24,452 bases of DNA from a virus, in the IMG/VR virus record IMGVR_UViG_3300025310_000023, positions 1-24,452 of that record; one strand, written 5' to 3'. A program made the position numbers and the translations under genes. The notes under the pieces were generated by a model. It saw only the letters and a program-made list of their open reading frames with translations. It was not told where the DNA came from and did not search any database. This document shows, piece by piece, positions 16,665 to 24,007 of this stretch (position 1 is its first letter; each line of letters opens with the position of its first letter).

Positions 16665-16705
16665 GCCGGAAGGTGATCCGCTACAACGTGTACCCGTGAT
16701 GAAGC

Positions 16706-16822
16706 GTGCACGATATCGCGCACGGTATCAACGGCAACGTGCTTACCGTACGCGATACCGTGCACGGTACCGGCCTTAACGTGTTTACCGTGCACGATAC
16801 CGTGCACGGTATCACCGTTGCC
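16706..16822. repeat. 42-bp tandem repeat with nested palindromes (2.8 copies)
   Basis: Copies lie at 16706-16747, 16748-16789 and a partial one from 16790. Each contains a palindrome; the third is perfect over 18 bp (GATACCGTGCACGGTATC, 16796-16813), the others have one or two changes. The unit length is a multiple of three, so all frames stay open: one small frame (16699-16779) reads RARYR-type repeats and another (16706-16924) reads VHDTVHG-type repeats. Coding is not shown. It could be an operator cluster or a structured RNA at the end of the late operon. Confidence 0.75.
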
Positions 16823-17878: not shown

Positions 17879-18081
17879 GCGTGCGGGAGCCCTACGTGTT
17901 GGATCGAGGGACGGGGGGCCTGTGCCACATCAGGCTCGTCGCGACGGGGCAGTGCCTCGCGTGTGTGCGAGTGGAGGCCGTGGACATCCTGACACAGATG
18001 GTGCGCCGGGAGACGATCGCCGAGATAGCTATGGCGTGTGACCGACGCCCAGAGGGGCACGATCACGTGAGCAGCCGATGA
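17875..18081 (+). CDS. Small unknown early protein
   Basis: The 68-residue protein contains two close cysteines (CLAC near residue 27) with another Cys (GLCHIRL) upstream and one downstream (MACDRR), so metal binding is possible. The segment VEAVDILTQMVRRETIAEIAMAC is helical. ATG 17875 overlaps the previous TGA, and its own TGA overlaps the methyltransferase ATG, giving a tightly coupled three-gene early operon. No family is recognised. Confidence 0.55.
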   Translation: MSVREPYVLDRGTGGLCHIRLVATGQCLACVRVEAVDILTQMVRRETIAEIAMACDRRPEGHDHVSSR

Positions 18082-19187
18082 CGCAGGCCGAGAGGATCGC
18101 CCGCTCGGAGGTACAGTATGTCCTACACGGCGACTGCGTTGATGTCATGCGCGGCATGGAGCCGGACAGCATCGACGCGGTGGTCACTGACCCGCCCTAC
18201 CACCTCACGACTGGCAAGACGGGCGGGCCAGTGACTGGATACATGCGCAAGGTGTGGGATGGCACGGGCATAGCGTTTGATCCGGCGATGTGGGCGGAGG
18301 CGCTGCGCGTCATGAAGCCCGGCGGTTATCTCGTAGCGTTCGGCGGTCGGCGCACCTATCACCGACTGACGTGCGCGATCGAGGATGCGGGATACGAGAT
18401 ACGCGACTGTATTTTGTGGTTGTACGGCTCGGGTTTTCCGAAATCACGGAATCTCGGCGACGGGCGAGGGACCGCGCTTCGGCCGGGGTGGGAGCCGTGT
18501 GTATTGGCACGCAAGCCGCTCGTGGGAACGCTGACGGAGAACGTCGAGCGATACGGCACTGGCGCGATCAACATCGGTGCGTGTCGATTTAAGAGCGCGC
18601 CGCGACTTCGAGGCACACGAGATGACGGGCACAAGCAGTACCAGCGGCGGCAGCGCGACGGTGGAAGATGGAGGATAGAAGACGGATACGGCGCTCTCTA
18701 CCGTCCATCTTCTACCGTCTACCATCGATATCGGCCATCATCTCGCCGCTGGCCGACGAACGTCATCCTCGACGAAGAAGCGGCGGCGATGCTGGATGCA
18801 CAGAGCTGTCAGGATGCAGGCGGGCCATCGCGTTTTTTTTACACCACGAAAGCGCCGAAATCAGAACGCGAAGCCTGGGGACGGCTGACGCTGCCAGCTC
18901 AGCGCCGCACCGCCGGCGGGATAAAAGACCAAGAGAGCCCGTACCTCCGTACCTCACCGCGCATCAACGATCACCCGACCGTCAAGCCACTGGCCCTCAT
19001 GGAGTGGCTGATCAGGCTCGTCACCCCACCTGGCGGGATCATCCTCGATCCGTTCTGCGGCTCGGGCTCTACGCTGGTAGCGGCAAAGCGGCTGCGCGTG
19101 CGCGCCATCGGCATCGAGCAAGACGAGCGGTCAGTCGAGATCGCCCGCCAGCGCATCGCAGCGCAGTGGGAGGTGCAGCTGCTATGA
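18078..19187 (+). CDS. Beta-class DNA methyltransferase (N4-cytosine or N6-adenine)
   Basis: The 369-residue enzyme transfers a methyl group from S-adenosylmethionine to an exocyclic amine in DNA, probably protecting phage DNA from host restriction. The catalytic motif DPPY is at residues 38-41 and the AdoMet-binding motif FCGSGST at about 326-332; this order with a long recognition region between them defines the beta class. HPTVKPLALMEWLIRLV near residue 300 is also typical. No restriction gene is adjacent. Residues of about 194-218 are encoded by a 74-bp repeat that recurs after the gene, within the variable recognition region just before RRWPTNVILDEEAA. The start overlaps the previous stop (ATGA). 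An 18-codon ORF (19184-19240) overlaps its stop. Confidence 0.92.
   Translation: MTQAERIARSEVQYVLHGDCVDVMRGMEPDSIDAVVTDPPYHLTTGKTGGPVTGYMRKVWDGTGIAFDPAMWAEALRVMKPGGYLVAFGGRRTYHRLTCAIEDAGYEIRDCILWLYGSGFPKSRNLGDGRGTALRPGWEPCVLARKPLVGTLTENVERYGTGAINIGACRFKSAPRLRGTRDDGHKQYQRRQRDGGRWRIEDGYGALYRPSSTVYHRYRPSSRRWPTNVILDEEAAAMLDAQSCQDAGGPSRFFYTTKAPKSEREAWGRLTLPAQRRTAGGIKDQESPYLRTSPRINDHPTVKPLALMEWLIRLVTPPGGIILDPFCGSGSTLVAAKRLRVRAIGIEQDERSVEIARQRIAAQWEVQLL
18659..18732. repeat. 74-bp interspersed repeat, copy 1 (inside methyltransferase gene)
   Basis: This copy matches the one at 19242-19315 in 70 of 74 positions, with no gaps. It is purine-rich on the left (GATGGAGGATAGAAGA) and pyrimidine-rich on the right (CCATCTTCTACCGTCTACC), and the two halves are imperfect inverted repeats able to form a hairpin. 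It is read in frame as part of the methyltransferase. Confidence 0.85.
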
Positions 19188-19241
19188 CCTGCGAGCTGGT
19201 GCGACTGATCGTGCGCACGGGATCGTCGCGGAGTCGGTAGA

Positions 19242-19315
19242 CGATGGAGGATGGAGGATAGAAGATGGATACGGCGCTCTCTACCGTCCATCTTCTACCG
19301 TCTACCATCGACATC
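19242..19315. repeat. 74-bp interspersed repeat, copy 2 (intergenic)
   Basis: This is the second copy of the element found in the methyltransferase gene. Here TAGAAGATGGA pairs perfectly with TCCATCTTCTA in the right half, forming an 11-bp stem. It starts directly after the stop of an 18-codon ORF that overlaps the methyltransferase end. It lies in the gap before the HTH gene. Confidence 0.85.
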
Positions 19316-20832: not shown

Positions 20833-21360
20833 ATGCTCGACATCACCTCGCCACTGGAGATGGCGTTGGCCTACGCCAGGCACGGCTGGGCGGTACTGCC
20901 ACTGCACAGCCTTGTGGATAGCCGCTGTGACTGCCGGAGAACGTGCGCGAGCCCCGCCAAGCACCCGCGCACGCTGCACGGCGTTAAGGATGCCACGACC
21001 GATCTAGACAAGATCGCCCGCTGGTGGGGCATGTGGCCGCAGGCCGGCGTGGGCATCGCTACAGGCGCGGTGTCGGGGATCGTGGTGTTTGACGTTGACC
21101 CTCGCCACGGTGGGCTAGAGACGATCGACAAGGTGCGCAAGAAGTACCCACTGTTTTTGCCGGAGACAGCGCGGGTGCGAACACAGGGTATGGACGGTGG
21201 GTACCATCTGTACTACGCCTATCGCGAGGGCATGAAGCTCCGATCTCCGGGGCCGGGGATCGACATCAAGAGCGACGGCGGCTATGTGGTGGCCCCGCCC
21301 TCGGTGGGGCCGGAAGGGCCGTACCGCTGGGAGGTGGCAATGGAGCTCACGCAGCTATGA
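20833..21360 (+). CDS. Primase-polymerase (bifunctional Prim-Pol domain)
   Basis: The 175-residue enzyme of the archaeo-eukaryotic primase superfamily is expected to synthesise primers for phage replication. Motif order is intact: GWAVLPLH near residue 15, GVGIATGAVSGIVVFDVDP with the metal-binding DxD at about residues 80-83, the nucleotide-binding His in GGYHLYY near 121, and GIDIKSDGGYVVAPPS near 140. A CDCRRTC pair adds a possible zinc site. Only the catalytic domain is present; the helical PriCT part and helicase are in the next gene, which overlaps by ATGA. Such parts are often fused in other phages and plasmids. Confidence 0.88.
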   Translation: MLDITSPLEMALAYARHGWAVLPLHSLVDSRCDCRRTCASPAKHPRTLHGVKDATTDLDKIARWWGMWPQAGVGIATGAVSGIVVFDVDPRHGGLETIDKVRKKYPLFLPETARVRTQGMDGGYHLYYAYREGMKLRSPGPGIDIKSDGGYVVAPPSVGPEGPYRWEVAMELTQL

Positions 21361-22820
21361 CAGACGACATTTCCGGTTGGGCCGATTTTTTGCTTGAGGA
21401 GGAAAAGCCGCCGGCCATCCCGGTCACGCGGACGGTGCCGGTCGGCTACCGGACGCGCATCTTCCTCGAGCGCGGAGCGCCCATTGGCGTACAACGGATC
21501 GAGGCGGTGCGCGCTGCAAGGAACCTGCTCGGAGCGGGATACGACGTGGAGGTGGTCGCGGCGAAGATTTGGGATGCGCTGGAAGTATCGCCGTACGACC
21601 CGGAGCGCGGGCCATGGACGTGGGACGAGGTGTACCGGATGGTGGCGGACGTGGCGTCTAAGCCCGCGCCACCGCTGCCGCCCTGGGAGACAGGCACGCT
21701 CATCGTGGACACGGGGCACACAGCGGTGCCCCTCGGCGATGTGGAGCACGCAGAGACAGATACGGGCACATTCACGTTTTGGTTCGCGGCCTACGACACA
21801 GTGCTGGAGATCAGTCAGGTGGTGGCGACGCCGCGAGGGACGACGGGATGGGTTCGCGCCCTGATAGGCGGCGCCGAGGTGGCAGCGGCGGAGTGCGAGC
21901 TCCGCACGGCACAGGGTGTACTCGTCATGCACCGGTTCTTCGAGGTCTTCCAGGGAGACAAGACAGTGCCGTGGGTGGCGATGCTCGAACATGCGCGCAG
22001 ACACGTGATCCGGGCGCGAAGGACGGGCGGCACGCCGGTGAGGATGTCGGCGATCAAGGTACCGGAGCGTCCCCGGCTGCGAGTAAGTCCGCTGATCGTC
22101 AACGGCGAGCTGAACGTGATCTTTGGCATGGGCGGATGCGGCAAGAGCTTGCTGATGCAACTGCTCGCCAGCCTCATCCAGGAGGGACGGAGCCATGCCG
22201 GGCTCACCGTTGAGCCCGGCAACGTGCTGTACCTGGACTGGGAGCAGGGTGGCGAGGATGCGCGAGAGACGCTGGACGCATTGGCCCGAGGGATTGGCGG
22301 GCATGGGAACTACCTGTACATGCGGTGCACAGGGACGCTGGTCGAGATGGCGGAGGAGATCGGGCGGATCATCCACGAGCAGGACATCGACGTCGTGATG
22401 ATCGACAGCCTGACGTTTGCCTTGGCCGGCGACAAAAACGACGCGCAGACGGTAACCGCGGGGACGAACGCGATGCGGCTATGGCGGGAGGGGACGACGG
22501 TGATCGCGCTTGATCACCAAGCTAAACAGCAAGGCAGACAGAAGCCTGAGGGGCCGTTTGGGTCGGTGTTTGTCCGAAATGCGGCGCGCAACATGCTCCA
22601 GATTGACGCCTACATGGACGCCGATGCGCACATTTTGCACCAGGTCATCGAGCAAAGGAAAACGAACAAAGGCATGTTGCCGAAGATAGGGTTGGCGTAC
22701 GTTTTCGAACCGGAAAGCTTCGCGCCGGAGCGGATCAGGGTGGAGCTGGAGGAGCCCCCGTTTGACATCGCCACGAAGCGGAAGTTGGACATGGAGCAGG
22801 AGTACGGGGCGCTGGGATAA
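21357..22820 (+). CDS. RepA-like replicative helicase (RecA fold) with PriCT-like N-terminus
   Basis: The 487-residue ATPase unwinds DNA at the fork, probably as a hexamer. Residues of about 45-105 (AVRAARNLLGAGYDVEVVAA, then WTWDEVYRMVADV) look like the helical PriCT domain normally attached to primases. Residues 110-250 are unassigned. The RecA core has Walker A GMGGCGKS at about 257-264, NVLYLDWEQGGED, Walker B VVMIDS near 346-351, and DHQAKQQG near 384. The layout matches RepA/RSF1010-type and phage RepA-like helicases. It overlaps the Prim-Pol gene, making a coupled primase-helicase pair. A long repeat-filled non-coding region follows. Confidence 0.88.
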   Translation: MTDDISGWADFLLEEEKPPAIPVTRTVPVGYRTRIFLERGAPIGVQRIEAVRAARNLLGAGYDVEVVAAKIWDALEVSPYDPERGPWTWDEVYRMVADVASKPAPPLPPWETGTLIVDTGHTAVPLGDVEHAETDTGTFTFWFAAYDTVLEISQVVATPRGTTGWVRALIGGAEVAAAECELRTAQGVLVMHRFFEVFQGDKTVPWVAMLEHARRHVIRARRTGGTPVRMSAIKVPERPRLRVSPLIVNGELNVIFGMGGCGKSLLMQLLASLIQEGRSHAGLTVEPGNVLYLDWEQGGEDARETLDALARGIGGHGNYLYMRCTGTLVEMAEEIGRIIHEQDIDVVMIDSLTFALAGDKNDAQTVTAGTNAMRLWREGTTVIALDHQAKQQGRQKPEGPFGSVFVRNAARNMLQIDAYMDADAHILHQVIEQRKTNKGMLPKIGLAYVFEPESFAPERIRVELEEPPFDIATKRKLDMEQEYGALG

Positions 22821-22852
22821 CGAAAACGTCGACTAACTAGCTCGCATGTGCG

Positions 22853-22873
22853 GTTAAAGTTTCGTTAAAGTTT
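22853..22873 (+). repeat. Direct repeat GTTAAAGTTT, two copies
   Basis: Perfect 10-bp copies at 22853-22862 and 22864-22873 are one helical turn (11 bp) apart in an AT-rich stretch. They may be protein-binding sites or part of an unwinding element. Confidence 0.7.
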
Positions 22874-22956
22874 TTGGAATACGCCGCATCCCGTCACCTT
22901 GTAATCGCTTCTCTGCGGGGTTTTGATAATGTATAAGCCCTTTATCCCCCGCTATA

Positions 22957-22966
22957 GTGTATACAC
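22957..22966. promoter_or_regulatory. Palindrome 1, GTGTATACAC
   Basis: A perfect 10-bp palindrome preceded by a TATAGT word, with a C-rich tract (CCCTTCCCC) a few bases after it. It shares its core with the palindrome at 22981, so it is a candidate site for a dimeric regulator or initiator. Confidence 0.6.
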
Positions 22967-22980
22967 GGACCCTTCCCCTA

Positions 22981-22994
22981 GAGTGTATACACTC
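22981..22994. promoter_or_regulatory. Palindrome 2, GAGTGTATACACTC
   Basis: A perfect 14-bp palindrome followed by TTACCCCTCC. It lies 24 bp from the first one (same core), which is near two helical turns. Confidence 0.65.
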
Positions 22995-23008
22995 TTACCC
23001 CTCCACTA

Positions 23009-23056
23009 ATGAGCTCACGAGCTGACGAGCTGATGAGCTAATGAGGTAATGAGGTA
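23009..23056 (+). repeat. 8-bp tandem repeat array 1 (6 units)
   Basis: Six units of the form A(T/C)GAG(C/G)TN: ATGAGCTC, ACGAGCTG twice, ATGAGCTA, ATGAGGTA twice, ending in ATAG. The array precedes large palindrome A by 18 bases. It shares a 27-bp identical block with array 2. Confidence 0.85.
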
Positions 23057-23058
23057 AT

Positions 23059-23072
23059 AGTGAATATACACT
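23059..23072. promoter_or_regulatory. Palindrome 3, AGTGAATATACACT
   Basis: A 14-bp palindrome with one mismatched pair, related to palindromes 1 and 2 and, like palindrome 2, followed by TTACCCCTCC. It directly adjoins the left arm of large palindrome A. Confidence 0.55.
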
Positions 23073-23074
23073 TA

Positions 23075-23149
23075 CCCCTCCCCCCTTCTGCTGCTGTGTG
23101 TGGTCCCTTCGAAGGGACCACACACAGCAGCAGCAGAAGGGGGGAGGGG
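23075..23149. repeat. Large palindrome A (36-bp stem, 3-base bulge)
   Basis: Arms 23075-23110 and 23111-23149 are perfectly complementary apart from one extra triplet in the right arm: CTG occurs three times on the left and CAG four times on the right. The centre is CCCTTCGAAGGG with no spacer. The outer arm is CCCCTCCCCCC / GGGGGGAGGGG. CTTA and TAAG can extend the stem past a two-base bulge. As DNA it could extrude a cruciform, as RNA form a long hairpin. Confidence 0.92.
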
Positions 23150-23178
23150 AGTAAGGAGCTCAGACACGGTGAGGAGTA

Positions 23179-23234
23179 ACGAGGTAATGAGCTGACGAGC
23201 TGATGAGCTAATGAGCTTATGAGCTTATGAGGTA
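23179..23234 (+). repeat. 8-bp tandem repeat array 2 (7 units)
   Basis: Seven units: ACGAGGTA, ATGAGCTG, ACGAGCTG, ATGAGCTA, ATGAGCTT twice, ATGAGGTA, ending in ATAG. It has the same style and partly identical sequence to array 1, and precedes large palindrome B by about 40 bases. Confidence 0.85.
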
Positions 23235-23271
23235 ATAGCGGATTGCGTTATGACTGTATTAGCTCCTTACC

Positions 23272-23350
23272 TACCTGTCCTCCCCTTGCTGTTGTTGTGT
23301 GTGGGTCCCTTGATGGGGACCCACACACAACAACAAGGGGAGGACAGGTA
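23272..23350. repeat. Large palindrome B (35-bp stem, 3-base bulge)
   Basis: Arms 23272-23309 and 23316-23350 are complementary apart from one extra CTG triplet in the left arm. The loop is TTGATG. It shares a design with palindrome A (C-rich outer arm with CCTCCCC, triplets CTG/TTG, TGTGTGG, GGTCCC) but differs in sequence, so it is an old duplication with both arms changing together. Confidence 0.92.
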
Positions 23351-23399
23351 AAGAGATTCCACACACCAGTGAGCACAGAAGTAAAGAGCTCATAGTGGA

Positions 23400-23413
23400 T
23401 ATAGTGCACTATA
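23400..23413. promoter_or_regulatory. Palindrome 4, TATAGTGCACTATA
   Basis: A perfect 14-bp palindrome followed by GGAGGGG, the complement of the CCCCTCC tract that follows palindromes 2 and 3; it is thus the mirror-image boundary of the region. It contains TATAGT, a -10-like word, on both strands, and lies about 50 bp before the next gene, so an operator-promoter role is possible. Confidence 0.6.
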
Positions 23414-23459
23414 GGAGGGGTAGCGCGCTGCGATTGCGGATGGTGCACCGGAGGCTGTG

Positions 23460-23693
23460 GTGAGCGAGGAGCTGACGGACACACGGATGCTCGTAGCGGG
23501 TATGATCCTCGGCGCAGGGCTAGCGCTATTTGCGCACCGAGTGGTTGATGCCCTTCACAGCGAGGGGGAGGTGCGCACGGCGAATGACCACCAGGTGACC
23601 ACGTCCGCTACGGACAGTGGCACCTTGTGGAGATGCCGCACCCCCGTGCGGACAGCGACGGTGGCAGGCCAGACGCTGCACGGATGCTGGTAG
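23460..23693 (+). CDS. Small membrane protein, unknown function
   Basis: The 77-residue protein starts at GTG 23460, five bases after GGAGG; GTG 23457 would add one residue. It has one hydrophobic segment near the N-terminus (MLVAGMILGAGLALFAH, about residues 10-26), then a Thr/Ser/Val-rich hydrophilic part. No family is recognised. It overlaps the nuclease gene by about ten bases. The C-terminal half has modest coding character, so the true protein may be shorter in function. Confidence 0.5.
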   Translation: MSEELTDTRMLVAGMILGAGLALFAHRVVDALHSEGEVRTANDHQVTTSATDSGTLWRCRTPVRTATVAGQTLHGCW

Positions 23694-24007
23694 TGGACAC
23701 GCAGTCGTACCTCGCGCAGGCGATGACCGAGGCGGAGCTGCAGGCCCGGATCAAAGAGCTGGCGCTTTGCCTCGGGTGGATGTACTACCACACCCGCGAC
23801 TCGCGTCGCTCCGATCTAGGCTTCCCGGATTTAGTGCTAGTGCGTGACGAAAACGTCATCATCGCCGAATTGAAGCGCGAGAAGGGCAGGCTCACTGCCG
23901 CGCAAGAGACATGGGGCGCCGCTCTCAGCAACTGCAAGACTGTGGACTACTACCTCTGGCGCCCAGCACACTGGTACGCAGGCGCGATCGAGGAGGCGCT
24001 TCGGTGA
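23684..24007 (+). CDS. VRR-NUC domain nuclease (PD-(D/E)XK)
   Basis: The protein is about 107 residues from ATG 23684; GTG 23627 or ATG 23633 would extend it, and ATG 23726 (MTEAELQ) would shorten it. The virus-type replication-repair nuclease pattern is clear: EAELQARIKELALCLGWMYY, RRSDLGFPDLVLVR with the metal-binding Asp, and VIIAELKREKGRLTAAQ with the E-x-K pair, then a W near the end. Family members from phages are dimeric and several cut Holliday junctions. Here it lies next to large cruciform-prone palindromes and follows the replication genes, so junction resolution or replication-repair is its likely job. Confidence 0.85.
   Translation: MLVVDTQSYLAQAMTEAELQARIKELALCLGWMYYHTRDSRRSDLGFPDLVLVRDENVIIAELKREKGRLTAAQETWGAALSNCKTVDYYLWRPAHWYAGAIEEALR

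Follow-up and report, generated by a model that had tools for sequence, protein, structure and literature searches.

Twin inverted palindromes in a putative replication origin behind the Prim-Pol and helicase genes of a metagenomic phage

Closest described systems

Large stem-loops situated 3' of primase genes have been described previously. Replication of pRN1 depends on a 100-nt stem-loop that begins 54 bp past the end of the Prim-Pol-helicase gene; the stem-loop still works when moved, one stem mutant is rescued by restored symmetry, and the GTG motifs are dispensable. The authors of that study predicted that phage BIP-1 has a comparable stem-loop downstream of its replication gene, and stated that there is no direct proof that the stem-loop is the origin (PMC4234260). 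In RSF1010, which has iterons and the helicase RepA, replication starts at two hairpins, ssiA and ssiB, one per strand, with an archaeo-eukaryotic-type primase (PMC4434180, PMC6925257). Prim-Pols prime at GTG (ORF904) or GTGG (NrSPol), and the Prim-Pol of phage NrS-1 does so at the template motifs TTTGGTTA, GTG/GTGG (PMC8718748).

The locus analysed here lies in a virus record of 24,452 bases, a metagenomic contig that we refer to in its entirety as the window. Like pRN1 and BIP-1, the window has a Prim-Pol (PF09250) directly upstream of large stem-loops, here two palindromes called A and B, which occupy non-coding DNA just 3' of the replication genes, contain GTG motifs, and keep their structure through changes in sequence. 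It differs from the pRN1/BIP-1 type in having two near-perfect palindromes in inverted orientation and two octamer arrays, where pRN1 has no iterons and a single stem-loop whose loop is large, and in encoding its helicase, of the AAA_25 (RecA-like) class, as an ORF of its own, where pRN1 has an SF3 helicase with a winged-helix domain. An earlier note on this DNA, whose author knew of no described phage element with this layout, was too strong on that point, because stem-loops 3' of primase genes are known from pRN1 and BIP-1 (PMC4234260); for the twin face-to-face form with octamer arrays, no description was found in the literature searched.

On paper, the window also resembles the RSF1010/IncQ oriV in its archaeo-eukaryotic-type primase, separate helicase gene (hexameric in RSF1010), iterons, two hairpins (one per strand in RSF1010) and GTG near a hairpin, and its palindromes are inverted both by flank and by triplet (see below), to be compared with the opposite-strand hairpins of RSF1010. 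An ssi of RSF1010 is 40 nt with a 21-nt hairpin segment, in contrast to palindromes of 75-79 bp here; no RepC-like iteron binder was recognised in the window, octamer arrays being present, and by sequence its Prim-Pol matched none of the solved AEP chains, RepB' included. As with NrS-1, the Prim-Pol belongs to a phage, but TTTGGTTA is absent from the window palindromes, and an origin structure for NrS-1 does not appear in PMC8718748. By these comparisons the window joins features of pRN1 (place, primase type) with features of RSF1010 (two hairpins plus repeats). We file it under neither, because it departs from them in features that were tested, namely helicase class, iterons and hairpin form.

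The gap and its inverted pair of palindromes

Gene order in the window runs portal, protease, capsid, tape-measure and endolysin, then methyltransferase, Prim-Pol primase and RecA-like AAA_25 helicase. Between the helicase and a downstream nuclease is a gap of ~640 bp (22821-23456) without a plausible forward gene, in which A begins 255 bp and B 452 bp past the helicase stop. The features, from primase to nuclease, are as follows (a sign gives the strand; features without one are unstranded):

20833-21360, +, Prim-Pol (archaeo-eukaryotic primase/polymerase), 175 aa; PF09250, E 1.1e-39
21357-22820, +, RecA-like AAA_25 helicase, 487 aa; PF13481, E 1.8e-21; phrog_906 DNA polymerase/primase, 1.4e-11
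22853-22873, 11-bp direct repeat GTTAAAGTTTC, two copies, in a stretch of ~45-47% G+C
22956-22966, small dyad AGTGTATACAC
22982-22993, small dyad AGTGTATACACT then CTTACCCCTCC
23006-23058, +, octamer array 1, YGAGSTNA, 6.6 copies, iteron-like
23059-23072, small dyad AGTGAATATACACT, adjoining palindrome A
23075-23149, palindrome A, 36 bp stem, extra CAG triplet in right arm
23151-23166, +, A flank GTAAGGAGCTCAGACA, with an inverted copy beside B
23181-23236, +, octamer array 2, between A and B, about 7 copies
23255-23270, -, B flank TGTATTAGCTCCTTAC, inverted copy of the A flank, 14/16 identical
23272-23350, palindrome B, 35 bp stem, 6-nt loop, extra triplet in left arm
23401-23422, small dyad ATAGTGCACTAT plus GGAGGGGTA (inverted TACCCCTCC)
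23627-24007, +, VRR-NUC nuclease (Holliday-junction-resolvase-like), after the gap; PF08774, 1.9e-6; phrog_93/phrog_5702

The helicase start overlaps the primase stop (ATGA); the two are separate ORFs here (20833-22820) and one fused protein in relatives. Profile searches matched the helicase to AAA_25 (RecA-like) and to no SF3/D5 model, and its structure, predicted without an alignment, had a pLDDT of 37, too poor to judge other domains. Upstream of the palindromes, G+C is 45-47% in 40-bp bins versus about 62% for the genome, and the low-G+C stretch at the GTTAAAGTTTC repeats is a possible unwinding element. GC skew has no switch in the gap region.

Repeats also occur elsewhere in the window. 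A near-identical ~76-bp hairpin element of heptad repeats GGAAGATGGAGGATAGAAG...TCTACCGTCCATCTTCTACCGTC is present at 18656-18730 and 19238-19313, one copy within an N6/N4 methyltransferase ORF (18078-19187) and the other just behind it; it had no match in phage or plasmid records, and it may account for why the methyltransferase is longer than its PHROG profile. Behind the endolysin gene, at 16705-16814, is a 12-mer array GATACCGTGCACG with a 42-bp higher-order period and many inverted repeats.

Palindrome A consists of 23 inner and 13 outer Watson-Crick pairs around the centre TTCGAA, without a spacer, and B of 20 inner and 15 outer pairs closed by the 6-nt loop TTGATG. Four triplets in one arm oppose three in the other (right versus left in A, with CAG as the surplus; left versus right in B), so that the two ~35-bp palindromes of the earlier note, each with one additional triplet in one arm, are borne out. 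The folding that it proposed as a check gave -45.9 kcal/mol for A (z = -12.8) and -43.4 kcal/mol for B (z = -11.6) as single-stranded DNA, the z scores being relative to dinucleotide shuffles, of which 0 of 200 folded as well. A and B are the sole inverted repeats of such size within the window, and an identical scan of 1.6 Mb of related phage contigs found no stem longer than 20 pairs. Read off alignments, A and B differ by 4 substituted and 2 inserted base pairs, changed in both arms every time, as had been claimed. The GTG cluster GTGTGTGG is identical in the two; GTG occurs 3 times per 75 bp in the palindromes versus 21.7 per kb in the genome (one strand), and this is not an enrichment in count.

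Folded as RNA, A and B reach -76.9 and -72.8 kcal/mol, and both lie between two same-strand genes. Folds this strong in such a place would suit an RNA-level element in the helicase-nuclease transcript, either a terminator, an attenuator or a processing/stability signal, and yet we regard this as unlikely: both strands are symmetrical, Rfam gave no match, and G-U pairs, which an RNA constraint would tolerate, number 0 of 71 in A and B, all of them Watson-Crick, and are equally missing from nine hairpins of relatives (see below). Zero G-U pairs in A and B are expected for a constraint on DNA rather than on RNA. An intrinsic terminator was rejected as a candidate, because the T-tract after the hairpin is absent on either strand and the region has 0 terminator-like sites.

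The smaller repeats of the gap bear on another explanation, in which A and B would be dyad sites for a dimeric or oligomeric protein and function without hairpin formation: they might be operators, form a centromere-like site for partition, or block the fork. The small dyads AGTGTATACACT, repeated near the palindromes, have an operator-like look, and the octamer arrays fit protein binding. Against this, near-perfect symmetry over 36 bp far exceeds the usual pair of operator half-sites, and no ParA/ParB or repressor was recognised among the genes scanned, several small ORFs being without assignment; we consider the explanation improbable.

The palindromes had been described as independent, which was wrong: one element is present twice, the copies A and B being inverted and sharing 16 bp of flank, a relationship that is new relative to the earlier note. 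The 16 bp adjoining the right arm of A reappear inverted adjoining the left arm of B (0 of 2000 shuffles score as high), and the same flank comparison found no match in direct orientation; the palindromes alone give alignment scores of 30 inverted versus 28.5 direct, a difference that carries little weight alone. In both copies, 4 triplets lie in the arm adjoining the shared flank and 3 in the opposite arm. Because the flanks make A and B an inverted pair, the extra triplet is in the corresponding arm of both, an agreement expected half the time by chance; its placement in the right arm of A and the left arm of B was thus correct as to position, and these are the same arm of an inverted element rather than differing arms. 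Octamer array 2 sits between the two inward-facing copies.

Relatives of the locus and hairpins behind fused genes

Searches by DNA, helicase and core pattern found no close relative of the palindrome locus. Gap DNA gave short, chance-level matches only against phages and plasmids, the helicase as query found no relative in IMG/VR, phages or plasmids, and the core palindrome patterns were found in neither IMG/VR nor GTDB genomes (for the strict pattern, no further copy in 84,980 species genomes or IMG/VR). Six IMG/VR contigs (L196-L201) contain YGAGSTNA-like octamer arrays, with no detectable Prim-Pol of the window type and no such palindromes. The closest bacterial Prim-Pols (L173-L178) are mostly cut off downstream, or have no strong hairpin there.

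Of 14 relatives identified by portal, only 1 has a Prim-Pol, and the closest, L100, is a truncated contig that ends before reaching the gap. L100 bears on the suggestion that the palindromes are a packaging (cos/pac) or recombination site, for which the gap is suitably placed, with a nuclease gene following it and, going by the expected gene order, the terminase a few genes later. In L100 the genes run HNH, small terminase, large terminase, portal, without a palindrome there. No integrase was recognised near the gap, and we hold a site of either kind to be highly improbable.

Relatives of the Prim-Pol itself are mostly fusions with PriCT_1 and AAA_25, and both window proteins are collinear with the fused protein (hhalign E 1.5e-39 for the Prim-Pol, and 1.9e-7 for the helicase against the helicase half). 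In many of these relatives, direct repeats and then a hairpin come directly after the stop of the fused gene. Among 23 loci that were chosen for having a hairpin, its start ranges from +34 to +94 nt relative to the stop and is most often at +66 to +75; given that choice, the figure tells of position and not of frequency; in 13 of 32 non-redundant contigs, the region after the stop has the strongest local fold of the whole contig. An iteron-plus-hairpin region is present in L008, L011, L013, L016, L043, L047, L057, L066, L074 and L172, and the iteron sequence differs by lineage (GGGACA, GAACAG, GTAACC), L043 and L172 having the same layout with different iterons (GAACAG and GTAACC). These regions are candidate origins, widespread in environmental phages. 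The hairpin is absent in Prim-Pol lineages with longer proteins (L012, L018, L028, L030 and others), and none is present at the stop in MW202444, whose Prim-Pol is the best match among phage records (47%); the trait is therefore not universal.

The fused-gene phages (L008, L011, L013, L016, L043, L057, L172 and others) share with the window homologous replication proteins (by hhalign) and direct repeats with an unequal-arm hairpin, theirs having a bulge of 2-3 nt. Unequal arms recur among them, usually as a 2-nt bulge in the left arm, which differs in both position and side from the extra triplet of the window. Their hairpins have ~16-20 pairs near +70, compared with 35-36 pairs from +255 in the window; their arms are built from the iteron, whereas the octamers of the window lie outside the arms and are unlike them, and GTG is missing from some. 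Given this difference in where the repeats lie, we regard the layouts as alike without inferring homology, and A and B may resemble the hairpins of the relatives by analogy rather than by descent.

Among nine distinct, equal-length inner hairpins of relatives, both sides changed in 5 of 10 pairs and 97.8% of cells remained paired, without any G-U. Their covariation score was 0.356, versus 0.113 shuffled and at most 0.108 slid; because the nine sequences are related and were aligned with the hairpin in view, the score is to be taken as support and not as a probability. The absence of G-U in the 71 pairs of A and B, together with this covariation, suggests that it is probably the palindrome as a structure that is being preserved. 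To that extent the earlier note, which took compensatory change to mean that the hairpin is selected, stands, but A and B alone do not prove it, since template switching during replication is another process that can mend quasi-palindromes, with joint changes in the two arms as the outcome (PMC7202029). Selection on structure is one possible cause of the two-arm changes and template-switch correction another, and only comparison between phages separates them.

That correction, a known mutational process, also belongs to a further explanation, namely a mobile or self-correcting palindrome without a phage role, which was duplicated once as an inverted copy and whose symmetry is upheld by template switching. 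The presence of two such copies in a single gap would fit, as would the second duplicated hairpin element of this genome (18656-18730, 19238-19313). We think it very unlikely, given that the strict core pattern has no other copy in the collections searched and that other phages have a hairpin in the equivalent position, which speaks for a role.

The region as a putative replication origin

The reading we favour, and consider reasonably likely, is that region 22821-23456 is the replication origin of this phage. Counted in its favour are the location of the gap directly behind the Prim-Pol and helicase genes and the hairpin at the corresponding place in relatives, with its covariation, along with the pRN1 experiments, the priming of Prim-Pols at GTG, the RSF1010 parallel, the inverted arrangement of A and B, the zero G-U count and the missing terminator tail. 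Counted against it are the Prim-Pol lineages and MW202444 that have no such hairpin, the placement of the octamers beyond the arms, the GTG count, the lack of GTG in some hairpins of relatives and its dispensability in pRN1, and a GC skew that shows no switch. An origin of this sort would be a known kind of element, present here in an unusually elaborate form.

In such an origin, the Prim-Pol and AAA_25 helicase encoded just upstream would act on 22821-23456, with the octamer arrays as double-stranded recognition sites bound by an initiator, and the nearby A+T-rich upstream stretch would melt. Helicase loading would then expose A and B as hairpins, or the palindromes would extrude as cruciforms, and in either form they would be structure-marked priming sites near which the Prim-Pol primes. 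Since A and B are inverted relative to each other, each may be aimed at a different strand. The GTG motifs GTGTGTGG are candidate start triplets for the primase; their clustering as a priming signal is suggestive only. A bolder version, in which a tailed phage uses RSF1010-like strand-displacement replication that starts at two palindromes facing each other across a central iteron array, and the one-triplet asymmetry tells the primase each hairpin's strand, is speculative and in our estimate rather doubtful.

Start-site choice in primase-polymerase phages is largely unmapped, and this locus, together with the family of iteron-hairpin regions, provides concrete and compact candidate origins. 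The inverted pair in particular would offer a clean test of whether the primase reads hairpin structure, hairpin orientation or sequence.
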